Assembly: GCA_017305815.1 (NCBI GenBank)
Contig: JAFKJZ010000172.1
Span: 1-11,759 of the forward strand
Source of the DNA: Hyphomicrobiales bacterium
GTDB taxonomy: Bacteria > Pseudomonadota > Alphaproteobacteria > Rhizobiales > Kaistiaceae
Direction: 5' to 3'
DNA: 11,759 nt
The notes under the pieces are model-generated. The model saw nothing but the letters and a program-made list of their open reading frames with translations, was not told the origin of the DNA and ran no database searches. Shown here piece by piece: positions 265-11,507 of this stretch (the first letter of the stretch is position 1; the number at the start of each line of letters is the position of its first letter). Both the position numbers and the translations under genes were made by a program.

Positions 265-1587
265 TTAGAAACTTTCACGAAACCAGTGGCCGAAACGGGA
301 GAAGTAGCCCCCCGTCCCGGTCATGGCCAACCGATGCCCCCGCATCGCGGATACCTGCTCGATCTGCGCGACCTGCGGATAGATCAGGAGACCCACCGCG
401 GCCGAGAAGGCCGGCCCGCGCGCCGCCTCCGGCAGACCCGTTACGCCGAGCGGACGACCGAGCCGGACATTGCGGGCAAGAATCCGCCGCGCCGCCTCGG
501 TAATGCCTGTCAGCTGGCTGGCGCCGCCCGTAAGCACGATGCGCCGGCCTACCATGGTCTGGAATCCGGAGGCGTTGAGCCGGTCACGGACGAGTTCCAG
601 GATTTCCTCGATGCGCGCGCGGATGATGCGCGTCAGCGCCGAGCGCGGAATCTGGTTGGGCAGGTCGCGGTCGTCGTCGCCGATCGGCGGGACCGAAAGG
701 ATGTCGCGATCGTCCGACACGCTCGGCAGCGCGCTGCCATGCATGGTCTTCAGACGCTCGGCGTCCTCGATCCGGGTCGACAGGCCGCGGGCGATGTCGG
801 TGGTGACGTGCTGGCCGCCGATGGCGATCGCGTCGGTATGGACGAACTGGCCGTCCATGAAGACGGAGATCGTCGTCGTGCCGCCGCCGAGATCGACGCA
901 GGCGACGCCCAGCTCCGTCTCGTCGTCGACGAGCGCCGAAAGACCCGAGGCATAGGGCGTCGCGACCATGGCCTCGACCGAGAGATGGCAGCGGCCGATG
1001 GCGAGTTCGAGATTGCGCAGCGGCGCGGTCTCGCCGGTGACGACATGCATGTCGACGCCGAGGCGCTCGCCCAGCATGCCGCGCGGATCGCGAATGCCGC
1101 CATTGCCGTCGATGGCATAGCCGATCGGCAGAGAGTGGATGACCGAACGGTCGTCCGTCACGGAATGCTCGCGTCCGGCTGCCAGAACCCGCTTGATGTC
1201 CGCCTCCACCACTTCATGGCCGGCCAGGGCGACGCTCGCGGAGAACGCCTCGCTCGCCAGGCGGCCACAGGAGACGTTCACGATAAGCGATTCGACCGTC
1301 ACGCCCGCCATGCGTTCCGCGGCGTCGACGGCGAGGCGGATCGCCTGCTCGGCCTTGTCGAGGTCGACGACAACGCCCGACTTGATGCCGCGCGAACGCT
1401 GGTGGCCGATGCCGAGCACCTCGACCGCATGGGTGCGGCCGGGCAGCACGTCGCCCACCTCGCGCGGCTTCAGCCGGGCGATCAGGCAGCAGACTTTCGA
1501 CGAACCGACGTCGAGGATCGAGACGACGGTGCTCTTCTTGGTGGGCAGGGGGCGCATGCGACTGTCGGAGGACACAAAAAGGGACAT
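265..1587 (-). CDS. ftsA: Cell division protein FtsA
   Basis: FtsA (440 aa) is the actin-like ATPase that tethers FtsZ filaments to the inner membrane and recruits later divisome proteins. The actin-fold signatures are visible: phosphate-1 loop ILDVGSSKV (about 24-32), phosphate-2 loop VDLGGGTTTISVF (about 232-244), and the adenosine motif VLTGGASQLTGI further on. The extreme C-terminus, YFSRFGHWFRESF, is amphipathic and fits the FtsA membrane-targeting helix, so the protein appears complete. The length is slightly above the roughly 420 aa of E. coli FtsA because of a short N-terminal extension usual in alphaproteobacteria. The ATG at 1587 shares one base with the ftsQ TGA stop (TGATG), which implies translational coupling. 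An internal ATG at codon 11 is a less likely start. The stop is TAA. Confidence 0.97.
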   Translation of the reverse strand: MSLFVSSDSRMRPLPTKKSTVVSILDVGSSKVCCLIARLKPREVGDVLPGRTHAVEVLGIGHQRSRGIKSGVVVDLDKAEQAIRLAVDAAERMAGVTVESLIVNVSCGRLASEAFSASVALAGHEVVEADIKRVLAAGREHSVTDDRSVIHSLPIGYAIDGNGGIRDPRGMLGERLGVDMHVVTGETAPLRNLELAIGRCHLSVEAMVATPYASGLSALVDDETELGVACVDLGGGTTTISVFMDGQFVHTDAIAIGGQHVTTDIARGLSTRIEDAERLKTMHGSALPSVSDDRDILSVPPIGDDDRDLPNQIPRSALTRIIRARIEEILELVRDRLNASGFQTMVGRRIVLTGGASQLTGITEAARRILARNVRLGRPLGVTGLPEAARGPAFSAAVGLLIYPQVAQIEQVSAMRGHRLAMTGTGGYFSRFGHWFRESF

Positions 1588-2495
1588 CAGGTGCTCGCTC
1601 CCTTACGCTTGGCGAGCTTCTCGCGTTCCTTGATCTCGGCCGTCCGGCGCGCCGCCGCTTCCGGCGTCAGGCGCACGAACATCCGGTCGGCGAGGCGCAG
1701 GTCGACGCTGACGATATCCTTCGACAGCAGCCCGTCCTTGGCGTCGAGCGCCGCGATCACCTGCAGCGCCGCTTCCGGCTTGTCCTGTGGCAGCATCAGC
1801 GTGACGCCATTGTCGAGGACGAGATTCCAGCGACGCTCCGAGATCAGTACGGCGGCCCGCAGTCGGTCGCGGATTGCGGAGGCGGCGCCAGCCAGCGCGA
1901 TGGCCTCGCCGGCGCGCTTGTCGGCGCCCTGCCCCACCACGCGGATCAGATCCTGGTAATGCGTGTCCGACGCGTCGCCGATGACACGGCCCGACTCGTC
2001 GATGACCGAGACGGTCTGGTCGCGCTGCCACAGCACATAGGGCTTACGCTCGTTGATGGTGATCTTGAGCGTCGCCGGATAGATCTTGCGCAGCGTCGCG
2101 TTCTCGACCCAGGGCAGCGTCTCGACGCGCTCGCGCGCGGCGGCCAGATCGAAGGTCGCGAGCGAGGCTTCCGGCGCCAGCTCGAGGCGGTTCAGCACCG
2201 CGATTTCAGAGGTCTCGGTCTGGCCGGTGATGCGGACGGAATCGATCGCGAGCCCCGAGGCCGAGCTGATCCAGGTCAGCGTCTCGTCGACGCGATCGGC
2301 CGAGACCACGCCGGCGATGCCGGTCGCGGCGAACAGAAGGAACGTGCCCTTCAGTCCGGCATGGCGCGGCACCCGCCAGTTGATCCGGGAGAGCGCGCGG
2401 ATACGCCGATGCAGCCAGGGCGACAGCCTCCGGCCGGAGCCGAGCTCCGTTGCCGGCGCATCGCCCGCCGCTTCCTTGGTCGATCTCGGGCTCAT
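1587..2495 (-). CDS. ftsQ: Cell division protein FtsQ
   Basis: FtsQ is a bitopic inner-membrane divisome protein that links the cytoplasmic Z-ring machinery to the periplasmic FtsB/FtsL and septal synthase complex. The protein has a basic cytoplasmic N-terminus, one membrane segment (LKGTFLLFAATGIAGVV, about residues 48-64 from this start), then a POTRA domain opening with IDSVRITGQTETSEIAVLNRL-like sequence and the conserved LPWVENATLRKIYPATL stretch, then the FtsQ/DivIB beta domain. The ATG at 2495 overlaps the ddl stop as ATGA, giving 302 aa. Two in-frame TTG codons lie upstream: 2504, with a perfect GGAGGA six bases before it, and 2525, which would give 312 aa. The start is therefore uncertain by up to ten residues. 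The C-terminus, EIKEREKLAKRKGAST, is strongly charged. The family call is firm. Confidence 0.93.
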   Translation of the reverse strand: MSPRSTKEAAGDAPATELGSGRRLSPWLHRRIRALSRINWRVPRHAGLKGTFLLFAATGIAGVVSADRVDETLTWISSASGLAIDSVRITGQTETSEIAVLNRLELAPEASLATFDLAAARERVETLPWVENATLRKIYPATLKITINERKPYVLWQRDQTVSVIDESGRVIGDASDTHYQDLIRVVGQGADKRAGEAIALAGAASAIRDRLRAAVLISERRWNLVLDNGVTLMLPQDKPEAALQVIAALDAKDGLLSKDIVSVDLRLADRMFVRLTPEAAARRTAEIKEREKLAKRKGAST

Positions 2496-3415
2496 CTGCC
2501 GCAAGACGCGTCCTCCACCATCCAACTGACCAGTGCCGGAAAATCAATTCCGGCGTGTCGCGCCATATCCGGGACCAGCGACGTCGCCGTCATGCCCGGC
2601 TGGGTGTTCACTTCGAGACAGACGAGTTGCCCCGTGCCGCCGGGACGATCGTCATATCGGAAGTCCGCCCGGCTGATGCCGCGACACCCGAGAGCCCGAT
2701 GCGCCCGTACCGCTAGATTCTGTATACTTTGGTAAATATTTGGTGAAAGCGGCGCCGGAATAACGTGGCGCGCGCCGTTGGCGGAATACTTGGAATCATA
2801 GTCGTACCAGCCGCCCTCGGCCGTCACGAGTTCAATGATATCAAAGGCTTCGTCACCCCTGACGCCACAGGTGAGCTCGCGGCCGCCGACGTAACGCTCC
2901 ACCATGACCGTGTCCCCGAAGGCCCAGTCATCCGCAAATAATTGCTGAGGCGGGTTAATCGCGTCCTCGCGGACGATGAGCACGCCGAAGCTAGACCCTT
3001 CCGCCACCGGCTTGACGACATAGGGCGGCTCCATCGCGTGGGCGCGGGCGGCCTCGAGGCGATGCACCAGCAGCGAGTCGGCAACGGGAATGCCGGCCGC
3101 GTGCATCACATCCTTGGCGCGCGCCTTGTTCATGGCGAGCGCCGAGGCGAGCACGCCGGAATGCGTATAGGGAATGCCGAGGATCTCGAGGACGCCCTGG
3201 ATCGAGCCATCCTCGCCATAGGGACCATGCAGGGCGTTGAAGGCGACGTCGGGCTTCAGCTTCGCCAGCACCTCGGCGATGTCGCGCTGGACATCGACGC
3301 GGGTGACGCGATAGCCGGCCTGCTCCAGCGCGTCGGCGCAGCCGTTCCCCGAATTGAGCGACACCGGCCGTTCACTGGACCACCCGCCCATCAGGACGGC
3401 GACATGCTTCGCCAA
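2492..3415 (-). CDS. ddl: D-alanine--D-alanine ligase (Ddl)
   Basis: This ATP-grasp enzyme (307 aa) joins two D-alanines to give the dipeptide that MurF adds to the muramyl tripeptide. Family motifs are all visible: GGWSSERPVSL (10-20, with the active-site SER triad), LHGPYGEDGSIQG (62-74), VVKPVAEGSSFGV (133-145), YDYDSKY (204-210), and EVNTQPGMT (268-276, holding metal-binding Glu and Asn). The length is normal for a DdlB. The start is a TTG at 3415: it gives the expected MAKHVAVLMGG N-terminus, has GGAAGGA seven bases upstream, and no in-frame ATG or GTG lies between it and an upstream TAG. The nearest ATG is out of frame. It opens the ddl-ftsQ-ftsA-ftsZ unit and overlaps ftsQ by ATGA. Two AT-rich patches (about 2711-2745 and 2935-2960) stand out from the surrounding sequence. 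Confidence 0.96.
   Translation of the reverse strand: MAKHVAVLMGGWSSERPVSLNSGNGCADALEQAGYRVTRVDVQRDIAEVLAKLKPDVAFNALHGPYGEDGSIQGVLEILGIPYTHSGVLASALAMNKARAKDVMHAAGIPVADSLLVHRLEAARAHAMEPPYVVKPVAEGSSFGVLIVREDAINPPQQLFADDWAFGDTVMVERYVGGRELTCGVRGDEAFDIIELVTAEGGWYDYDSKYSANGARHVIPAPLSPNIYQSIQNLAVRAHRALGCRGISRADFRYDDRPGGTGQLVCLEVNTQPGMTATSLVPDMARHAGIDFPALVSWMVEDASCGR
2511..2516 (-). promoter_or_regulatory. Shine-Dalgarno of ftsQ, inside the ddl 3' end
   Basis: The minus strand reads GGAGGA. It is 6 bases before an in-frame TTG at 2504 and 15 bases before the ATG at 2495. The spacing favours the TTG, while the ATGA overlap with ddl favours the ATG. It lies within ddl coding sequence, so ftsQ translation is probably coupled to ddl. 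Confidence 0.5.
2721..2747 (-). promoter_or_regulatory. Possible internal promoter within ddl
   Basis: An unusually AT-rich patch inside ddl reads TTCACC, a 15-base spacer, then TATACA on the minus strand, each hexamer matching four of six sigma-70 positions. The spacer is short. E. coli has ftsQ promoters inside ddlB, so an internal promoter for ftsQAZ is plausible, but the match is weak and the patch may only reflect coding constraint. Confidence 0.2.
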
Positions 3416-3465: not shown

Positions 3466-3481
3466 GGTAAAGAAGCGTTAA
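3466..3481 (-). promoter_or_regulatory. CtrA-like box upstream of ddl-ftsQAZ
   Basis: The minus strand reads TTAACGCTTCTTTACC, that is TTAA-N7-TTAC, one base from the TTAA-N7-TTAA consensus of the alphaproteobacterial cell-cycle regulator CtrA. An AT-rich stretch with TAGATAT follows 8 bases later and could serve as a -10 region. CtrA is known to control ftsZ and ftsQA in Caulobacter, so the location makes sense. The box lies between the terminator of the preceding gene and ddl, where a promoter is expected. Confidence 0.5.
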
Positions 3482-3502: not shown

Positions 3503-3532
3503 AAAAATGGCGGCCCGCCGCGGGGCCGCCAT
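3503..3532 (-). terminator. Intrinsic terminator after the autotransporter
   Basis: A perfect 10-bp inverted repeat, arms ATGGCGGCCC (3507-3516) and GGGCCGCCAT (3523-3532) with a 6-base loop, is followed on the minus strand by a run of five T. The stem starts 23 bases past the autotransporter stop. This is a classical Rho-independent terminator on the minus strand only; reading plus, no U-run follows. It should separate ddl-ftsQAZ from everything upstream. Confidence 0.85.
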
Positions 3533-3555: not shown

Positions 3556-6318
3556 TCAGAACTTGATCTCGCCGTTGAGCTTCACCGCGTTCGAGGTGAC
3601 GCCGTCGCCGAACGAGCCGGCATAGGTCAACCCGAGATTGACATTGGCATTCACCGCAACGTCCAGGCCGGCTTCGAGCAGCAGGCTGTCGCGGGCGATC
3701 GGCGCGCCGTCGACCGTGAAGCCGGTGCCCGTGCCGGTGAAGGCGAGCGCCGCCTCCGGCACGTCGTCAGCGGCATGACGCCAGCCGACCATGCCGCGCG
3801 GCGCGACCTTGACGCCCCCGACCACGACCTCGGTCGAGGCCCGGACGCCGAGCGTCGTGTAGAACGTGTTGAACGAGGCGCCGTCGGAGCGGAGCCCCGT
3901 CACCGGCGCATTGCTCTCGGTGAAGCCGTCGACATCGACATTCACCCAGCCGAGGCCGGCGAAGGGCTCGATCGTCGCGGCGCCGAACTGCGTCTGGTAG
4001 CCGAGCTCGGCGAACAGATTGGCCGTGGTCGCGTCATAGGACGCTTCCGGCCGCTCGACGACATCGCCGATGGTGGTGGTGCGCTTGGTGTCGATCGAGC
4101 TCCAGGCGATCGAGGCGCCGCCGCGCAGCCGCAGCTTGTCGAAGCCGGCGCCGCCATAGAGGGCGAGCAGTCCGGTGTCGATATCGGCCGACGAGGCGAG
4201 ATCGTCGGCGTCGGTCGAGCCGCGGCTGTAGCCGCCGGCGACGCCGAGCGTATAGCCCTCGCCGGTCATGTCGACGCCGACCAGCACGCCGCCCAGATTG
4301 GTGTCGACGCCGGCGGCATTGCCGTCGCCATTCGTCGACGTCCAGGAACCGAAGGCCTGCGTCCAGGCGGAATAGCCCATATCGGCCGGCGCCAGCGCGC
4401 TGAAGGCCGAGGTGCCCTTCGCCTTCGGCTCCTCGCCATAGGCGAGCGGGGCGGCGTCCGCCGCCGGCGCCTTGGCGCCGCCGATCCGCGACAGTCGCGA
4501 CAGGATGGCGAGTTCGGCCTGCATCGACTGCTGGGCCAGCGCGCCGGTGACGTCGGCATGGATCTCGCCGTCGAGCGAGGCGAAGGAGTTCGCCAGCGCG
4601 ACCGGATCCTCGGCGCCGAACACCCAGCGATAGAGCTCGCCGGTGCCGTTGGCGGCGTCGATCGCGTTGGCGACGGCCCGCTGGTTGTCGGTGTTGGCGA
4701 CATCCGCGAAGGCGACGTCGTTGCGGTCGAGCGTCACCGAAACCGTGTTGGCGTCGCCGCCCAGCGTCGGATCGATGAACAGGAAGTCGGACGAGGTCGT
4801 GACGCTGCTGTAGCGCGTTCCCTCGATACCGCCGGTCGCGTTGATCAGCGTATAGGTGCTGCCGAGCGTGTAGGGGCCGCTCTCGGTCGTCAGCGCGATC
4901 GTGCCGCCGTCCAGCGTGGCAACGCCATCGACGTCGAGTTGGCCATGGTCGCCATTGCCGGCGATGGAGGCGTTGAGCGTCTGGAAATTGTCGAGCGAGC
5001 CAACCGTCGAAGTGCCGTAGTCGACCAGCGTCAGCGTATTCGAACCGGCCTGTCCGTCGAGCAATCCGTCGATCGACTGGCCGGCATAGAGCGTGACGAT
5101 ATCGTCGCCGCCGCCCATCAGCACGTCGCCGACGATCTCGCCCTTGTTGATCAGCGTGTCGTTCCAGTCGCCCGTCAGCGTGATCGCCTGGCCGATGTCG
5201 CTGACGATCTCGCCTTCGTTCATGATGGCGGTGGCGCCGAAGGCGGCACCGCCCTCGCTGTCGTCGATCAAGATGCCGCGCTGGACGCTGTAGATGAGGC
5301 CGCCGGCATAGTTGTTGATCGTGCCGCCGCCGGCAGAGATGCCGTCCGAGATGTTCGGGTCGGTCAGCACGCCGTCCTTGTAGCCGCGCGCGCCGAGCGC
5401 CTGGATCGTGCCGTAATTCTCGATCGCGACGAGACCGTCGACGTCGACGCCGTCGCCGTCCGTGTCGGTCGAGCTCGTGACCTGCGCCTCACCGGAGATC
5501 AGGCCGTAGTTGATCACCGAAACCGGCGCCGCCGTTCCGGACGTGTCGAAATTGATGCCGGAGCCGTTGCGGCCGCGGATGGTCGCGCCGGCCTCGTTGA
5601 CGACCGTCGCGCCGAGGTCGCCGGTGATGCCGTGCTTCGAGCCCTCGATCAGGCCGCCGGTGAAGTTGTTGACGGCGCCGCCGCCCTTGTCCTGGAAGTC
5701 GATGCCGTCGCCGCTGAAGCTGTTGGCATTCGCCGACGACTGGATCTTGCCGTAGTTGTTGATCGTGGCGTTCTCGCCCGGCCGCATCACGTCGGCGCCG
5801 GTGGCGGCGCTGATCACGCCGGTGGCGTAGTTGTTGATGGTGATCGTGCCGCCGGTCGCCGCATTGAAATTGATGGCGCGGCTCGCCGTCGAGGTGATCG
5901 TGCCGTAGTTCTCGACCAGTACCGTGCCGCCATAGAGCGGGTTGCTGATCTGGAAGGCGTCGTCGCCATTGCTCTCGATCAGGCCGGTGGAACGGTTCGT
6001 GACGGTCAGCGAATGGCCGTTGTTGACCGTGCTGTCATTGAGGCGAATGGCGCGGCCGGTGGTCGACTTGATCGTTCCGGCATTGTCGATCGAAAGCGTC
6101 GTCGAGGCGCCGTTGATGGTGACGGCGGTGCCGCTCGTCTGGAAGCTGCCACCCGTCTGAACCGTCAGCGTATCCGCGCCGGCCATGTTCAGCGACGTCG
6201 TGCGCGGCGTGCCGGCGACGACCGTGGTGTCCGTGCCATAGGCGGCGTTGGACATCGTGGCGAGCGCGCCAGTCGCGGCAAGCGCCACCCAGCTTACGGA
6301 AGAGAAATTCCTGATCAC
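3556..6318 (-). CDS. Autotransporter (type Va secreted) with beta-helix passenger
   Basis: This predicted surface or released protein (920 aa) exports itself through its own outer-membrane barrel. Order of parts: signal peptide (about 1-28, hydrophobic VALAATGALA, cleavage near SNAA or AYG); passenger with about twelve degenerate rungs of pattern [VI]xNxGxI between about 77 and 395 (for example VENYGTI, INNYGKI, INKGEI), typical of a right-handed beta-helix; a DTDGDGVDVDG loop at 285-295 like a calcium-binding site; an MGGGDDIVTL stretch; a probable autochaperone region around 470-540; a conserved helical segment with SLDGEIHADV; an Ala/Pro linker; and an autotransporter barrel from about 647 to the final Phe (NGEIKF). 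No Cys is seen, and no protease or GDSL esterase motif. The start is a GTG at 6318, chosen because it opens the signal peptide; the frame is open further up but there only shadows murC. It sits where murB is expected. Substrate and role are unknown; an adhesin-like function is a guess. Confidence 0.9.
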   Translation of the reverse strand: MIRNFSSVSWVALAATGALATMSNAAYGTDTTVVAGTPRTTSLNMAGADTLTVQTGGSFQTSGTAVTINGASTTLSIDNAGTIKSTTGRAIRLNDSTVNNGHSLTVTNRSTGLIESNGDDAFQISNPLYGGTVLVENYGTITSTASRAINFNAATGGTITINNYATGVISAATGADVMRPGENATINNYGKIQSSANANSFSGDGIDFQDKGGGAVNNFTGGLIEGSKHGITGDLGATVVNEAGATIRGRNGSGINFDTSGTAAPVSVINYGLISGEAQVTSSTDTDGDGVDVDGLVAIENYGTIQALGARGYKDGVLTDPNISDGISAGGGTINNYAGGLIYSVQRGILIDDSEGGAAFGATAIMNEGEIVSDIGQAITLTGDWNDTLINKGEIVGDVLMGGGDDIVTLYAGQSIDGLLDGQAGSNTLTLVDYGTSTVGSLDNFQTLNASIAGNGDHGQLDVDGVATLDGGTIALTTESGPYTLGSTYTLINATGGIEGTRYSSVTTSSDFLFIDPTLGGDANTVSVTLDRNDVAFADVANTDNQRAVANAIDAANGTGELYRWVFGAEDPVALANSFASLDGEIHADVTGALAQQSMQAELAILSRLSRIGGAKAPAADAAPLAYGEEPKAKGTSAFSALAPADMGYSAWTQAFGSWTSTNGDGNAAGVDTNLGGVLVGVDMTGEGYTLGVAGGYSRGSTDADDLASSADIDTGLLALYGGAGFDKLRLRGGASIAWSSIDTKRTTTIGDVVERPEASYDATTANLFAELGYQTQFGAATIEPFAGLGWVNVDVDGFTESNAPVTGLRSDGASFNTFYTTLGVRASTEVVVGGVKVAPRGMVGWRHAADDVPEAALAFTGTGTGFTVDGAPIARDSLLLEAGLDVAVNANVNLGLTYAGSFGDGVTSNAVKLNGEIKF
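5307..5842 (-). repeat. Degenerate coding repeats of the beta-helix passenger
   Basis: Short blocks recur at the DNA level where the INNY motif is encoded: 5307-5323, 5751-5767 and 5826-5842 are nearly the same 17 bases, and related blocks encoding ENYGTI occur near 5405 and 5895. The repeats are short and imperfect, as expected from an old rung-by-rung duplication, and spacing is irregular. They could allow slippage or recombination that changes passenger length. Confidence 0.5.
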
Positions 6319-6323
6319 GTCAA

Positions 6324-6350
6324 AGCCCCCGGTATGACAACCGGGGTGCT
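6324..6350 (-). other. Leader hairpin directly before the autotransporter start
   Basis: Arms CCCCGGT (6327-6333) and ACCGGGG (6340-6346) surround a 6-base loop. The stem can extend by AGC/GCT with one bulged base. On the minus strand it ends six bases before the GTG start and its 3' arm contains the only G-rich stretch that could act as a ribosome-binding site. It may mask that site, or be a terminator-like end of the murC transcript, although only TTTG follows. Confidence 0.5.
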
Positions 6351-6380
6351 TTACGGATTCAACATGACAATCGGACAACA

Positions 6381-6407: not shown

Positions 6408-7820
6408 TCAGGCGAGCGCGGCGAGCGCCTCCAACTCGCCCGGCAGAGCATAGGCCCAGCTGGTGATCGAGCCGGCGCCGAGGCAGACGACATAGTCGCC
6501 CGGCTTGGCGATCGCGGCGATCTCGGCGGCGAGCGCCTGCGGGCCTTCGAGCGCGCGGGCGTCGCGATGGCCGCGAACCCGCAGGCCGTCGACGAGATGG
6601 TCGCTGTCGATGCCCTCGATCGGCGTTTCGCCGGCGGCATAGACGGGCGCCACCAGAACGGTGTCGGCATCGTTGAAGCAGGTGCAGAAGCCGTCGAACA
6701 GGTCGCGCAGACGGGTATAGCGATGCGGCTGGACGACGGCGATCACCCGTCCCTTGGTCGAGGCGCGCGCCGCCTTCAGCACGGCGGCGATCTCGACCGG
6801 ATGGTGGCCGTAATCGTCGAACACCTCGACGCCGTTCCAGGAGCCGGTATGGGTGAAGCGGCGCTTGACGCCGCCGAACGCCGCCAGCCCCTTGCGGATC
6901 GCGTCGTTGGAAATGCCCAGGTGATGCGCCACGGCGATGGCGCCGGTCGCGTTCTGCACATTGTGCTCGCCCGGCATCGGCAGCACGAGGTCCACCAGCT
7001 CCGCGGTCTCGCCGGTCACGCGGTCGCGGATGCTGGCGGTGAAGATCGACTTGCCGCCCTCGTTGCGCAGATTGCCATAGCGGATGTCGGCCTGCGGGTT
7101 GGCGCCATAGGTGATGATGCGCCGGTCCTCGATCCTGCCGATCAGCGACTGCACTTCCGGATGGTCGAGGCACATCACGGCGAAGCCGTAGAACGGGATG
7201 TTCTCGATGAACTGCTTGTAGGCGTCGCGCGCCTTGTCGAAGGTGCCGTAGTGGTCGAGATGCTCGGGATCGATATTGGTCACGAGCGCGACGTCGGCCG
7301 GCAGCTTGACGAAGGTGCCGTCGCTCTCGTCAGCCTCGACGACGACCCAGTCGCTGGCGCCCATGCGGGCATTGGTGCCATAGGCGTTGATGATGCCGCC
7401 ATTGATGACGGTCGGGTCGAAGCCGCCGGCGTCGAGCAGCGCCGCCACCATCGAGGTGGTGGTGGTCTTGCCATGCGTGCCGGCGATGGCGATGGCGCTC
7501 TTCAGGCGCATCAGCTCGGCCAGCATCTCGGCGCGGCGCACGACGGGCAGCAGCCGCTCGCGGGCGGCTTTCAGCTCGGGATTGCTGGCCTTGATGGCCG
7601 AGGAGACGACGACGACCCGCGCATCGCCGAGATTGGCGGCGTCATGGCCGACCGCGACGGCGACGCCCTTCGCCTTCAGGCGCTGGACATTGGCGTTCTC
7701 GGCCGTGTCCGATCCCTGCACCCGGTATCCGAGATTGACCAGCACCTCGGCGATGCCGCTCATGCCGATGCCGCCGATACCGACGAAATGGACCGACCCG
7801 ATGTCGCGGGGCATTTTCAT
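6408..7820 (-). CDS. murC: UDP-N-acetylmuramate--L-alanine ligase (MurC)
   Basis: MurC (470 aa) is the cytoplasmic ATP-dependent ligase that adds L-Ala to UDP-MurNAc, the first amino acid of the stem peptide. The Mur-ligase order is complete: N-terminal dinucleotide-fold loop GIGGIGMSG (14-22), P-loop GTHGKTT (114-120), EADESDGTF (162-170), [11 protein letters not shown] (182-192), GEHNVQN (284-290), the C-terminal domain with DDYGHHPVE (335-343), and QPHRYTR (364-370). Length is typical. The ATG at 7820 has GGAG eight bases upstream inside the murG 3' end and lies three bases after the murG TAA. MurC's substrate comes from MurB, whose gene is normally the next one; here the autotransporter follows instead. 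Confidence 0.97.
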
Positions 7821-7823
7821 GAC

Positions 7824-8942
7824 TTAAACTCCGGTGGATCCGTCGGGGCGCTTTCCGCCGGCAACGCGCTCGACCAGGTCGGCCAGGCGTTCAACGGCGT
7901 CGGGGCGTCCGACGGATCTTGCTGCGGCCGCCGCCTGGGCCAGACGGCCCGGCTCGGCCAGGAAAACGGTCAATTCGCGCGCCAGGCGGTCGGCTGTCAA
8001 CTCGGCCTGCGGGACGACCCAGCCGCCGCCCGCCCTGGCGAGGACGAGCGCGTTGGCGCTCTGGTCCTGATCGATGGCGCCGGGAAGCGGCACCATGATG
8101 GCGGGCCGCCCGATAACGGCGAGTTCGCACACGGTCGATGCGCCCGAGCGGGAGACGACGAGATGGCTCGCGGCGATCCGCGCCGGCATGTCCTTGAAGA
8201 ACGACGCCAGTTCCGCCGTGACGCCGAGCCTGTCATAGGCGGCGCGGACACGGTCCATGTCCTCCGGCCGGCATTGCTGGACGATCGAAAGCCGGGCGCG
8301 CGAAGCGGCGTCGAGCTTGGCGAGCGCCTCGGGCAAGAGGTCGGAGAAGAAGCGCGCGCCCTGGCTGCCGCCGAAGACGACGAGCTTCAGCGGGCCGCCT
8401 TCCGGCTGGGCCGGATAGGGAAGCTTGCTGGCGTCGATCACCATCTGCCGGACGGGATTGCCGGTCTGCACGACCTTGCCGCTGGCCGCGTCGGCATGGC
8501 CGACCTCCGGAAAGCTGGTCGCGACCGCGCTGACCCGCGACGCCAGCAACCGGTTGGCGCGGCCGAGCACGGCATTGGCGTCATGCGCGACGGACGGGAT
8601 GCGCAGATGCACCGCCGCGAGAAGCGGCGGCACGGTCGGATAGCCGCCGAATCCGACCACGGCGGCGGGCCGCAGCCGCTTCAGCATCGCCTTCGACTGC
8701 CGATAGCCCTGCCAGAGGCTCCAGGCCGCCGCCAGCAGCACCTTGGGCGACTTCACCGAAGGGGTCGCGGAGCGGATGATATGCGTCTCGTCGGCCGGAA
8801 AGTTCTGGCCGTAGGTCTCGGCGCGATGATCCGTCGCCAGATGCACGGACCAGCCGCGATCCTTCAGCGCGTAGGCGAGCGCCTCGGCGGGGAACAGATG
8901 GCCGCCCGTTCCGCCGGCGCAAAGCAGGATCGTCCTGTTCAT
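7824..8942 (-). CDS. murG: UDP-GlcNAc:lipid I GlcNAc transferase (MurG)
   Basis: MurG (372 aa) is the peripheral inner-membrane GT-B glycosyltransferase that turns lipid I into lipid II. It shows the N-terminal glycine loop GGTGGHLFPAEAL (10-22), GFGGYPTVPPL, the second glycine loop GGSQGARFF (191-199), SRSGASTVCEL (264-274) and the UDP-GlcNAc-binding segment PLPGAIDQDQSANA (about 286-298). One difference stands out: the usual HEQNAVxGxxNR motif reads HDANAVLGRANR (120-131), so the Glu-Gln pair is Asp-Ala. The start ATG at 8942 is four bases past the ftsW stop and has no clear Shine-Dalgarno, suggesting coupling to ftsW. The C-terminus ends GGKRPDGSTGV. Confidence 0.96.
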   Translation of the reverse strand: MNRTILLCAGGTGGHLFPAEALAYALKDRGWSVHLATDHRAETYGQNFPADETHIIRSATPSVKSPKVLLAAAWSLWQGYRQSKAMLKRLRPAAVVGFGGYPTVPPLLAAVHLRIPSVAHDANAVLGRANRLLASRVSAVATSFPEVGHADAASGKVVQTGNPVRQMVIDASKLPYPAQPEGGPLKLVVFGGSQGARFFSDLLPEALAKLDAASRARLSIVQQCRPEDMDRVRAAYDRLGVTAELASFFKDMPARIAASHLVVSRSGASTVCELAVIGRPAIMVPLPGAIDQDQSANALVLARAGGGWVVPQAELTADRLARELTVFLAEPGRLAQAAAAARSVGRPDAVERLADLVERVAGGKRPDGSTGV

Positions 8943-8946
8943 CGCG

Positions 8947-10107
8947 TCAGGCTGCCTTCGGCCGGGTGGTGGCGAAGCGGCTGAAGCCGGCGGTCAGGCG
9001 CGCGGGCTCGAAGCGGCGGCGCGTCAGCGCCAGCACGAGGCCCATCTGGAAGGCGAGCGCCAGCATGGACGAACCGCCATAGGAGATGAACGGCAGCGTC
9101 ATGCCCTTGGCCGGCATCAGGTTCAGATTCACCGCCATGTTGATGACCGACTGCACGCCGAACAGCACCAGCAGGCCGGCGGAGGCGAGGCGCACGAAGG
9201 CATCCTCGTTCTTGAGGCTGTGGCTCAGGCCGCGCACGACGACGAAACCGAACATCAGCACCAGCCCCATGCAGAGGATGATGCCGAATTCCTCGGCCGC
9301 GACGGCGAAGATGAAGTCGGTATGGCTATCCGGCAGGATGCGCTTGACGACGCCCTCGCCCGGTCCGCGGCCGAGCCAGCCGCCGTGGATCACCGAGTTC
9401 AGCGCGGTATCGACCTGGAAGGTGTCGCCGGCGCCGGGATCGAGGAAGCGGTTGATGCGGCCGGCGAAGTGCGGGAACACCGTATAGGCGGCGACGATGC
9501 CGAGAGCGGCCAGACCGGCGAGGCCGGCGATCCAGAACCAGGAGAGGCCCGCCATGAAGAACACGGCCGACCAGGCGATGACGACCAGCATGGTCTGGCC
9601 GAGGTCCGGCTGCGCCACCAGCAGCGCGGCGACGATCGCCAGCAGCAGCATGGCGAAGATGTTGCCCGGGATATCGTTGCGGCGCGAATTCTCGGTGAAG
9701 AGCCAGGCCGACAGCACCAGGAAGGCCGGCTTGACGAATTCGGACGGCTGCAGCGAGAAGCCGAGGATGTTGATCCAGCGCCGGGCGCCCTTCACTTCCT
9801 GGCCGATGAACAGCGTCGCGAACATCAGCACGACCGAGATCGCGAAGACGATCAGCGCCGTGCGGCGGACGTTGCGCGGCGACAGGAAGGAAGTGCCGAT
9901 CATGATGGCGATCGTCGGCACCATGAACATCACGTGGCGTTTCACGAAGTGGAAGCTGTCGAGACCGATGCGCTCGGCCACGGGCGGGCTGCCGGCGAGC
10001 GACAGCACGACGCCGCCGATCATCAGGGCGAGCAGCCCGAACAGGAGATACTTGTCGACCGTCCACCACCATTCGGCGAAGACGCTGCGATCGGCCCGGC
10101 TGACCAT
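8947..10107 (-). CDS. ftsW: Septal peptidoglycan glycosyltransferase FtsW (SEDS family)
   Basis: FtsW (386 aa) is a polytopic inner-membrane SEDS protein that polymerises lipid II at the septum together with the FtsI transpeptidase. Many hydrophobic segments are visible, and the signature stretches are QPSEFVKPAFL, the large periplasmic loop with LGRGPGEGVVKRILPDSHTDFIFAVAAEE (split here only for description; it holds the putative catalytic Asp of SHTDF), and PAKGMTLPFISYGGSSML near the C-terminus. Two starts are possible. The ATG at 10107 has GGAGG seven bases upstream and shares a base with the murD stop; the GTG at 10110 overlaps it as GTGA with only four bases to the GGAGG. The ATG was preferred. 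The C-terminal tail is basic (FATTRPKAA). Confidence 0.95.
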   Translation of the reverse strand: MVSRADRSVFAEWWWTVDKYLLFGLLALMIGGVVLSLAGSPPVAERIGLDSFHFVKRHVMFMVPTIAIMIGTSFLSPRNVRRTALIVFAISVVLMFATLFIGQEVKGARRWINILGFSLQPSEFVKPAFLVLSAWLFTENSRRNDIPGNIFAMLLLAIVAALLVAQPDLGQTMLVVIAWSAVFFMAGLSWFWIAGLAGLAALGIVAAYTVFPHFAGRINRFLDPGAGDTFQVDTALNSVIHGGWLGRGPGEGVVKRILPDSHTDFIFAVAAEEFGIILCMGLVLMFGFVVVRGLSHSLKNEDAFVRLASAGLLVLFGVQSVINMAVNLNLMPAKGMTLPFISYGGSSMLALAFQMGLVLALTRRRFEPARLTAGFSRFATTRPKAA

Positions 10108-11507
10108 CACTTGACCTCCACGAACGGTTTGGCGCCGTCGAGCGCCAGGACGAGAGAGCGGAAGTGATCGCCGCGCTGCTCGAAATTGGAATATTGATCG
10201 TAGGACGCACAGGCTGGCGACAGCAGCACCACAGGCTCCGCCGCGCCGTCCGTCGCCGCGTCGCGGGCCGCATCGGCGACCGCGACATCCATCGTACCTG
10301 ACATCACCGTCTCGACCTTGCCCGCCAGCGTCGCCGCGAATTCCTCCGCCGCGTCACCGATCAGATAGGCTTTGGCGATCCGGGGAAAATACGAGGCGAG
10401 GCTGGTGATGCCGCCGGTTTTCGGCTTGCCGCCGGCAATCCAGTAGATGCGGTCATAGCTCGCCAGTGCCTTCTCGGCGGCGTCTGCATTGGTCGCCTTG
10501 CTGTCGTTGACGAACAGCGCCCGGTCGATCCGCGCGACACGCTCCATACGATGGGCGAGGCCCGGAAAGCTCTTCAACCCCTCGACGATCTCGGCCTCGG
10601 AGATGCTCAGCGCGCGCGCCGCCGCGATCGCCGCGGCAGCGTTCTGCGCATTGTGGGCGCCGCGCAGCGATCCGATGCCGTCGAGATTCGCGACCTCGCG
10701 GATGACGGCGTCGTCGGCCTCGACGATGCGTCCCTTGTCGACGAAATAGCCATTGGCGACCGGCCGGCGCACGGAGATCCGCTCGACCGCCACGCCGCGC
10801 TTGTCGAGATCCGACGCGATGGTCGAGCACCAGTCGTCGTCGACGCCGACAACCGCCGTCCCGGCGCCGCGCACCAGCCGCGCCTTGATGGCGGCATAGC
10901 GCTCCATCGTGTCGTGCCGGTCGAGATGATCCTCGGTCAGGTTCAGCAGGATGCCTACGGTCGGGTCGATGGTCGGGGCCAGGTCGATCTGGAACGACGA
11001 GCACTCAACGATGTGGATACGATCCTTCGCGGGCGGATCCAGCGAGAGGATCGCCGTGCCGATATTGCCGCCGAGCTGCACGTCCCAGCCGTCGACGCGG
11101 AAGAGATGGGCGATCAGGGCCGTCGTCGTAGACTTGCCGTTGGTGCCGGTGATGGCAATGAAGGGCGCCGACGGGGCAATCGCCCGCCGCTCGCGGCAGA
11201 AGAGCTCGATGTCGCCGATGATCTCGACGCCGGCCGCCTTGGCGAGTTCGACGGTCCAGTGCGGCTTCGGGTGGGTCAGCGGCACGCCCGGCGACAGCAC
11301 CAGCGCGTCGACGCGGGAGAAATCCAGCCCGCGCAGGTCGACGGTCGGGATGCCGAGCGCGGCCGCTTTGGCGACGGACTCCGCCTTGTCGTCCCAGGCC
11401 GAGACCTCCGCGCCGCCGGCGACGAGCGCCTGCGCGGTGACGAGGCCGCTGCCGCCCAGTCCGAAGACCGCGACCGACTTGCCGGCGAAGGAGGTGATCG
11501 GCGTCAT
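10107..11507 (-). CDS. murD: UDP-MurNAc-L-Ala--D-glutamate ligase (MurD)
   Basis: MurD (466 aa) is the cytoplasmic ligase that adds D-Glu to UDP-MurNAc-L-Ala, the step after MurC. Motifs in order: N-terminal GLGGSG loop (16-21), [10 protein letters not shown] (71-80), P-loop GTNGKSTTT (121-129), ECSSFQ (168-173), [10 protein letters not shown] (189-198), GAHNAQN (283-289), FPGLAHRME (314-322), NDSKATN (334-340) and [10 protein letters not shown] (429-438). All are standard for MurD, and the length is within the family's range. The ATG at 11507 is 7 bases past the mraY stop, without a strong Shine-Dalgarno; the TGA overlaps the ftsW start region. The tight packing says mraY, murD and ftsW share one transcript. 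Confidence 0.97.
10115..10119 (-). promoter_or_regulatory. Shine-Dalgarno of ftsW, inside murD
   Basis: GGAGG on the minus strand lies 7 bases before the ATG at 10107 and 4 before the GTG at 10110, which favours the ATG. It is within the last codons of murD. Confidence 0.6.

Follow-up and report, generated by a model that had tools for sequence, protein, structure and literature searches.

An autotransporter gene at the murC/murB-ddl junction of the Kaistia dcw cluster and the apparent displacement of dcw murB

Introduction

In B. subtilis the position of murB within the dcw cluster is reportedly important for growth and sporulation, to go by the title of a study. In E. coli and in the FBC superphylum, murB is reported to be located outside of the cluster (PMC8871954). 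For R. sphaeroides it has been described that ddlA-ftsA is a separate operon, which is bound by NtrX (PMC7240162), and that ddlA is among seven dcw promoters (PMC9275681). The site motifs given in these two reports are TGA-N8-TGA for CenR and GCA-N9-TGC for NtrX (PMC9275681, PMC7240162). For H. neptunium the CtrA consensus is given as TTAA-N7-TTAAC, and CtrA is described to regulate ftsAKQZ in this species (PMC7200025), while in S. meliloti CtrA was reported to act on division via minCD, and not via ftsQA (PMC4433202). In the open-access literature, co-mentions of "dcw cluster" and autotransporter were judged to be incidental, and neither a record of a Kaistia autotransporter nor a record on Kaistia murB was found.

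Here, a dcw cluster with an autotransporter gene is analyzed. The DNA stretch, in the following called the window, is one entire contig of 11,759 bases from an assembly with 719 contigs, a completeness of 92% and a contamination of 5.3%. It was compared with other members of the genus, and the comparison set comprised 14 Kaistia genomes (order Hyphomicrobiales) including the genome of the window (G000).

Results

The autotransporter gene of the window

The window contains, in the order of transcription and all on the minus strand, the 3′ end of mraY, which is cut by the contig end (11515..11757, named from its position and by eye), murD (10107..11507), ftsW (8947..10110), murG (7824..8942), murC (6408..7820), the autotransporter gene (3556..6318), ddl (2492..3415), ftsQ (1587..2525), and ftsA (265..1587). 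Apart from mraY, the dcw genes were identified with Pfam. The gene murC lacks the murB that comes next in most relatives, and ddl, which is overlapped by ftsQ, opens a ddl-ftsQ-ftsA run.

The autotransporter gene is 920 codons long; its start codon is a GTG at 6318, and its stop codon is at 3556-3558. A sequence-only reading had claimed that an intact autotransporter gene of this length is located between murC and ddl. The open frame was verified, and its strand is that of ftsA, ftsQ, ddl, murC, murG, ftsW, and murD. The C-terminal barrel of that reading was also found, because residues 651-899 (3622..4368, minus strand) match the autotransporter beta-barrel PF03797 in Pfam (E 2.1e-62, 211.6 bits versus a cut-off of 26), and the NCBIfam profile TIGR01414 matches the protein, too. 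Residues 1-27 (6238..6318, minus strand) form a candidate Sec signal peptide, as judged by eye. The sole match to a solved structure was weak (9oqa_A, E 2.2e-4, residues 678-891). In the proposed search of passenger and barrel against protein databases, the passenger had no Pfam match at E 0.001. The passenger contains N-x-G-x-I repeats, it is acidic (pI 4.1 over residues 28-450) and free of cysteine, and it is likely to have a beta-helix fold.

Taken together, the protein resembles type Va autotransporters (PF03797 / TIGR01414) in having a C-terminal barrel, Phe as the final residue, an apparent signal peptide, and a repetitive passenger. It differs from the known members in that its passenger has neither a Pfam match nor any of the few protease motifs that were tried. 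An autotransporter serine protease (subtilase/EprS) was considered and rejected, because a peptidase Pfam domain was absent and the few simple protease motifs that were looked for were not present; furthermore, the EprS profile NF051851 yielded 210 bits versus a cut-off of 1700, covering residues 463-920. The passenger is presumably displayed at the surface, and an adhesin-like role would be a guess. The genome of the window has a second autotransporter on contig C611, which is a different gene (42% over residues 441-913).

The murC-ddl interval in the genus Kaistia

The order murC-autotransporter-ddl recurs with 87-88% identity in G009, on a contig of 2,785,797 bases, and in G002, on a contig of 963,197 bases. 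The junctions with murC and ddl had been named as possible assembly joins, and the same order in these two genomes ruled this out. In the genus as a whole, the order was murC-murB-ddl in four of the 14 genomes (G001, G006, G007, G013), murC-murB-autotransporter-ddl in three (G004, G005, G008), murC-autotransporter-ddl in three (the window, G002, G009), and murC-ddl without murB or autotransporter in four (G010; G003, Kaistia granuli; G011, Kaistia sp. 32K; G012, K. terrae). An autotransporter gene is therefore present at the murC/murB-ddl junction in 6/14 Kaistia, in three of them without murB and in three beside a resident murB. A comparison of this interval across relatives had been suggested earlier, with an ordinary strain-variable insertion as the outcome that would speak against a conserved placement. 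A shared placement was supported within limits: it is common to six genomes, but only to six of 14, and the gene was lost at least once (see below).

The dcw autotransporters of G004, G005, and G008 are longer than that of the window (1389, 1165, and 1374 residues, respectively, versus 920), and the two types are 46-52% identical over the matched pieces. Because of this low identity and the unequal lengths (920 versus 1165-1389 residues), the site may have acquired related genes twice. In G008, genes for a LysR regulator and a metallo-hydrolase are located on the opposite strand between the autotransporter gene and ddl (L071:2966-4749; Pfam). At the murB-ddl junction of G013, a PIN-domain gene and an antitoxin-like partner were observed (L074:3013-3659).

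Absence of murB from the cluster and a second type of MurB

The absence of murB from the dcw cluster of the window had not been noticed in the sequence-only reading. Most relatives have murB between murC and ddl: the order murC-murB-ddl was found in 81 of 97 non-Kaistia loci, and in the other 16 murC or murB was missing in the examined stretch, sometimes through a contig end. Within Kaistia, dcw murB is present in seven of the 14 genomes and missing in the other seven. Each of the seven genomes without dcw murB has one PF02873 match at another locus; in the genome of the window the sole match is C616:2160-3173 (L085), on a separate contig. The MurB encoded on C616 is of the PRK00046 (E. coli) type (429.6 bits versus a cut-off of 277), as is the non-dcw MurB of G009 (426.6 bits); these two copies were typed by profile, and the other five were grouped by tree. 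The dcw MurB of G007 is of the PRK13905 type (377.8 bits versus a cut-off of 259), and the remaining six dcw murB genes were assigned through similarity only. The YRDS, GSFF, and EP blocks of the C616 MurB align with solved MurB chains; the catalytic Arg, Ser, and Glu of the E. coli enzyme are presumably R159, S229, and E325.

The genomic surroundings of the other murB are shared within the clade of these seven genomes. A pirin gene adjoins it in 7/7 (tblastn), and a ClC-type channel gene flanks the other side in 6/7 (by eye or tblastn; Pfam in G002), the ClC-type neighbor of G012 not being in the short stretch examined. The best proteins beyond the Kaistia MurB cluster (P0137-P0147) are 58-63% identical and include those of Fodinicurvata and Inquilinus. 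In a quick tree with 64 rows, the seven Kaistia MurB and the 16 nearest database rows formed one branch (SH-aLRT 99). We read this as a displacement of dcw murB by a distant homologue elsewhere in the genome, which was then inherited, and the E. coli-type murB seems to have taken over the job of the dcw gene. As in the dcw clusters of E. coli and the FBC superphylum, murB is outside of the cluster in the seven Kaistia; in contrast to these, a single genus apparently switched from a dcw gene of the PRK13905 type to a gene of the PRK00046 type elsewhere.

G007 carries a second MurB-like gene off the dcw cluster (L118:799-1857). The possibility that it is the gene of the seven was rejected, as it lies closer to PRK13905, with 257.9 bits versus a cut-off of 259, than to PRK00046. 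In the non-Kaistia genome G032, the only murB match (C34:224152-224520) is on a contig other than that with the best ddl match; its match span is long as in the E. coli type, and maybe an independent murB switch occurred there.

The murB-ddl junction in Hyphomicrobiales

The junctions were measured in 110 loci after removal of 8 duplicates; the 13 Kaistia were excluded from the counts, and the loci had been chosen by ddl similarity and not randomly (L142 and L145 are from the same genome). In the non-Kaistia loci the gap between murB and ddl had a median of 266.5 bases and a maximum of 6,473 bases, with positions extrapolated from tblastn ends, so that small gaps are approximate. It was larger than 300 bases in 39 of 84 loci and larger than 1,000 bases in 18 of 84. 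Gaps above 300 bases were found at murG-murC in 1/81, at murC-murB in 4/81, at ddl-ftsQ in 0/97, and at ftsQ-ftsA in 0/97 non-Kaistia loci, and none at these four junctions exceeded 1,000 bases.

Eight cargo proteins from 7 of the 18 loci with gaps above 1,000 bases were analyzed with Pfam, which revealed MFS, MIP (twice), TerC, HupE/UreJ, alcohol dehydrogenase, and phosphoesterase domains; one of the eight had no Pfam match. The Hyphomicrobiales cargo is located at the same junction as the Kaistia autotransporter. In contrast to the other cargo loci, the window also lacks the neighboring core gene murB. A surface-protein gene within so conserved a cluster had been called unexpected. The placement itself is real, but the junction is variable, with 18 of the 84 non-Kaistia gaps above 1 kb, and the surprise is reduced because the autotransporter gene occupies the one soft joint of the cluster. 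Inspection by eye also revealed that similar MFS genes, on the strand opposite to the dcw genes, are repeatedly located between murB and ddl in rhizobia and related bacteria (L164, L178, L179, L185, L190, L197, L198, L204, and L206; L178 by Pfam).

Phylogeny, footprints of loss, and selection

In a tree of MurG, MurC, Ddl, FtsQ, and FtsA, the seven Kaistia without dcw murB formed one clade with an ultrafast bootstrap of 100. Within the clade, K. terrae stands beside G002 and G009 (91), and the window follows (97); the MurB tree is in agreement and places K. terrae with G002 and G009 (98). The branching of G008, G004, and G005 relative to the murB-only Kaistia was weakly supported (36 and 67), so that any dating of the autotransporter gain would be tentative. 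In a quick tree with 87 rows, the six dcw autotransporters formed one group (SH-aLRT 99) apart from 21 other autotransporters found in relatives; locus L011 gave no row, and unplaced database proteins fell within the dcw group.

The murC-ddl interval of K. terrae retains AGTTCTGACGCGACCGATTGACTCAG, which corresponds to the last codon, the stop codon, and the 3′ flank of the autotransporter gene of the window. Next comes a hairpin that shares its stem with the one of the window and has a T run. Blastn analyses of the four short murC-ddl intervals yielded no murB remnant at E 1, and the best match to the body of the autotransporter gene had an E value of only 0.19; thus the last codon, the flank, and the terminator are all that is left in K. 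terrae. In G010 the last codon is gone; what is left are the flank and a hairpin that is terminator-like but has a different stem. The intervals of G011 and G003 had no clear autotransporter footprint. The footprints in K. terrae and G010 point to a loss of the autotransporter gene, which was, on this evidence, lost in K. terrae and probably also in the lineage comprising G003, G010, and G011.

For the window, G002, and G009, the dN/dS values of the autotransporter gene were 0.14-0.19, and the passenger, linker, and barrel parts were alike (0.13-0.20). The respective values of the neighbors were 0.14-0.19 for ftsQ, 0.04-0.09 for murC, and 0.03-0.05 for ddl. The dS values of the autotransporter gene (0.18-0.43) were within the range of the neighbors (0.16-0.49), and its GC3 was 0.907, compared with 0.900 for murC and 0.769 for ddl. 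As dS is like that of the neighbors and GC3 like that of murC, the gene has been resident at least since the window, G002, and G009 split. This agrees with the earlier notions that the composition does not look foreign and that the gene has been there for long. The best reading of these values is a vertical inheritance under purifying selection.

Putative terminators, a leader hairpin, and a CtrA-like box

A terminator-like hairpin with a T run is located 3′ of the autotransporter gene (3503..3532, minus strand), as found with a hairpin script and an inverted-repeat search. Such a hairpin is present 3′ of all six dcw autotransporter genes, with a weak T run in G004, and the fold of the window's copy was unexceptional in comparison to shuffled sequences (z -1.22); the terminator reading is based on the recurrence at all six genes. 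In G001, G006, and G007, no hairpin with a T run was found between murB and ddl, and the interval of G013, which is filled by other genes, had weaker hairpins only. A consensus promoter/terminator scan yielded no promoter-like site (0 versus 0.6 expected), and it missed the terminator at 3503-3532, probably since the stem extends into the T run.

A further hairpin, which has no T run, is located in the interval between murC and the autotransporter gene and reaches the start codon (6318..6355, minus strand). The 91-base stretch that contains this leader hairpin folds better than 199 of 200 shuffled sequences (z -2.98). By eye, the hairpin resembles the terminators of murC in G011 and G003, and it may act as a transcription stop or mask the ribosome binding site. 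An Rfam search yielded three matches, all of them below the gathering score.

Upstream of ddl, a motif search revealed a CtrA-like box, TTAA-N7-TTAC (3467..3481, minus strand). It begins 63-128 bases upstream of ddl in 13 of the 14 Kaistia, G005 being without it. The more general motif TTAA-N7-TTA[AC] is present upstream of ddl in 26/111 loci, and in 13/97 loci outside of Kaistia; in single-base shuffles, which preserve only the single-base content, it was found in a mean of 0.26 of 111 loci versus the 26 observed. Upstream of murG, murC, ftsQ, and ftsA the box was found in 0/92, 0/95, 0/110, and 0/110 cases, respectively, which is a weak control because these stretches are mostly coding. The Kaistia box differs by one base from the TTAA-N7-TTAAC consensus of H. 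neptunium, and the minCD route in S. meliloti weakens its reading as a CtrA site. The box is a candidate promoter element of ddl, which is a lead and not a proof. With a terminator-like hairpin ahead of the CtrA-like box, and with ddlA-ftsA being a separate operon in R. sphaeroides, the murC/murB-ddl junction is probably an operon boundary.

Discussion

The murB switch is a stronger and more notable result than the placement of the autotransporter gene. The explanation that we consider to be likely is that an ordinary type Va autotransporter was kept vertically at an operon boundary of the dcw cluster, and that murB was displaced in the ancestor of the seven genomes. The protein would be exported via Sec, the barrel would insert, and the passenger would be displayed outside. 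In Kaistia, the gene would have settled at the murB-ddl junction, where murB or murC would be the end of one unit and the ddl promoter, carrying the CtrA-like box, the start of ddl-ftsQ-ftsA; an insert with its own terminator at such a boundary would therefore disturb neither unit. In the ancestor of the seven Kaistia, the resident murB would have been displaced by an E. coli-type murB elsewhere and would then have been deleted, which would have left the autotransporter gene, where it was retained, directly behind murC. Later it would have been lost in K. terrae, and probably also in the G010 lineage. We infer the order of these events, and the usage of promoter and terminator, from the sequences.

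As an alternative, one recombination event could have swapped murB for the autotransporter gene, with the new murB arriving before or after. This would fit to G000, G002, and G009, in which the autotransporter gene fills the place of murB from murC to ddl. However, a related autotransporter gene adjoins a resident murB in G004, G005, and G008, and neither gene is present in the cluster of four other members of the seven-genome clade, so that the gain of the autotransporter and the loss of murB are separable. A direct swap is thus unlikely.

It had also been suggested, as an inference, that a location beside septation genes could tie surface display to division. In a functional placement of this kind, the autotransporter would be expressed with the division genes or timed by them, and the passenger would be displayed at the septum or the new pole. 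Six genomes share the junction, the gene is under purifying selection, and the CtrA-like box is nearby, all of which would be in accordance with this proposal. Yet the gene has its own terminator-like hairpin before ddl, it is absent from the junction in 8/14 Kaistia, and the junction accepts other genes across the order. In K. terrae it is gone and only a footprint is left, while murC, ddl, and ftsQ are still in place. The suggested tie to division was not supported, and we regard a functional placement as very unlikely. The chances are slightly slimmer for the version in which the gene, located between the murC hairpin and a CtrA-like ddl promoter, is read through or timed with the division genes, the passenger is put on the new division surface, and the murB switch freed the junction and moved the gene next to murC. 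Lastly, the window is a single small complete contig of a fragmented MAG (719 contigs, 5.3% contamination), but an assembly or binning artefact is practically negligible, because the long contigs of G009 and G002 show the same order and the other murB of the window's own genome adjoins pirin and ClC-type genes as it does in the relatives.

The preferred explanation, a vertically kept autotransporter at an operon boundary together with a displaced murB, has two implications. The dcw cluster is often treated as rigid, but in Hyphomicrobiales it has one loose joint, which separates murB from ddl-ftsQ-ftsA. Furthermore, the genus Kaistia offers a natural experiment, in which a cell wall synthesis gene left the dcw cluster and a distant homologue is found at another locus. 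As the apparent murB switch lies within one genus, comparisons between closely related genomes can be used to study what it costs to take murB out of the dcw cluster.
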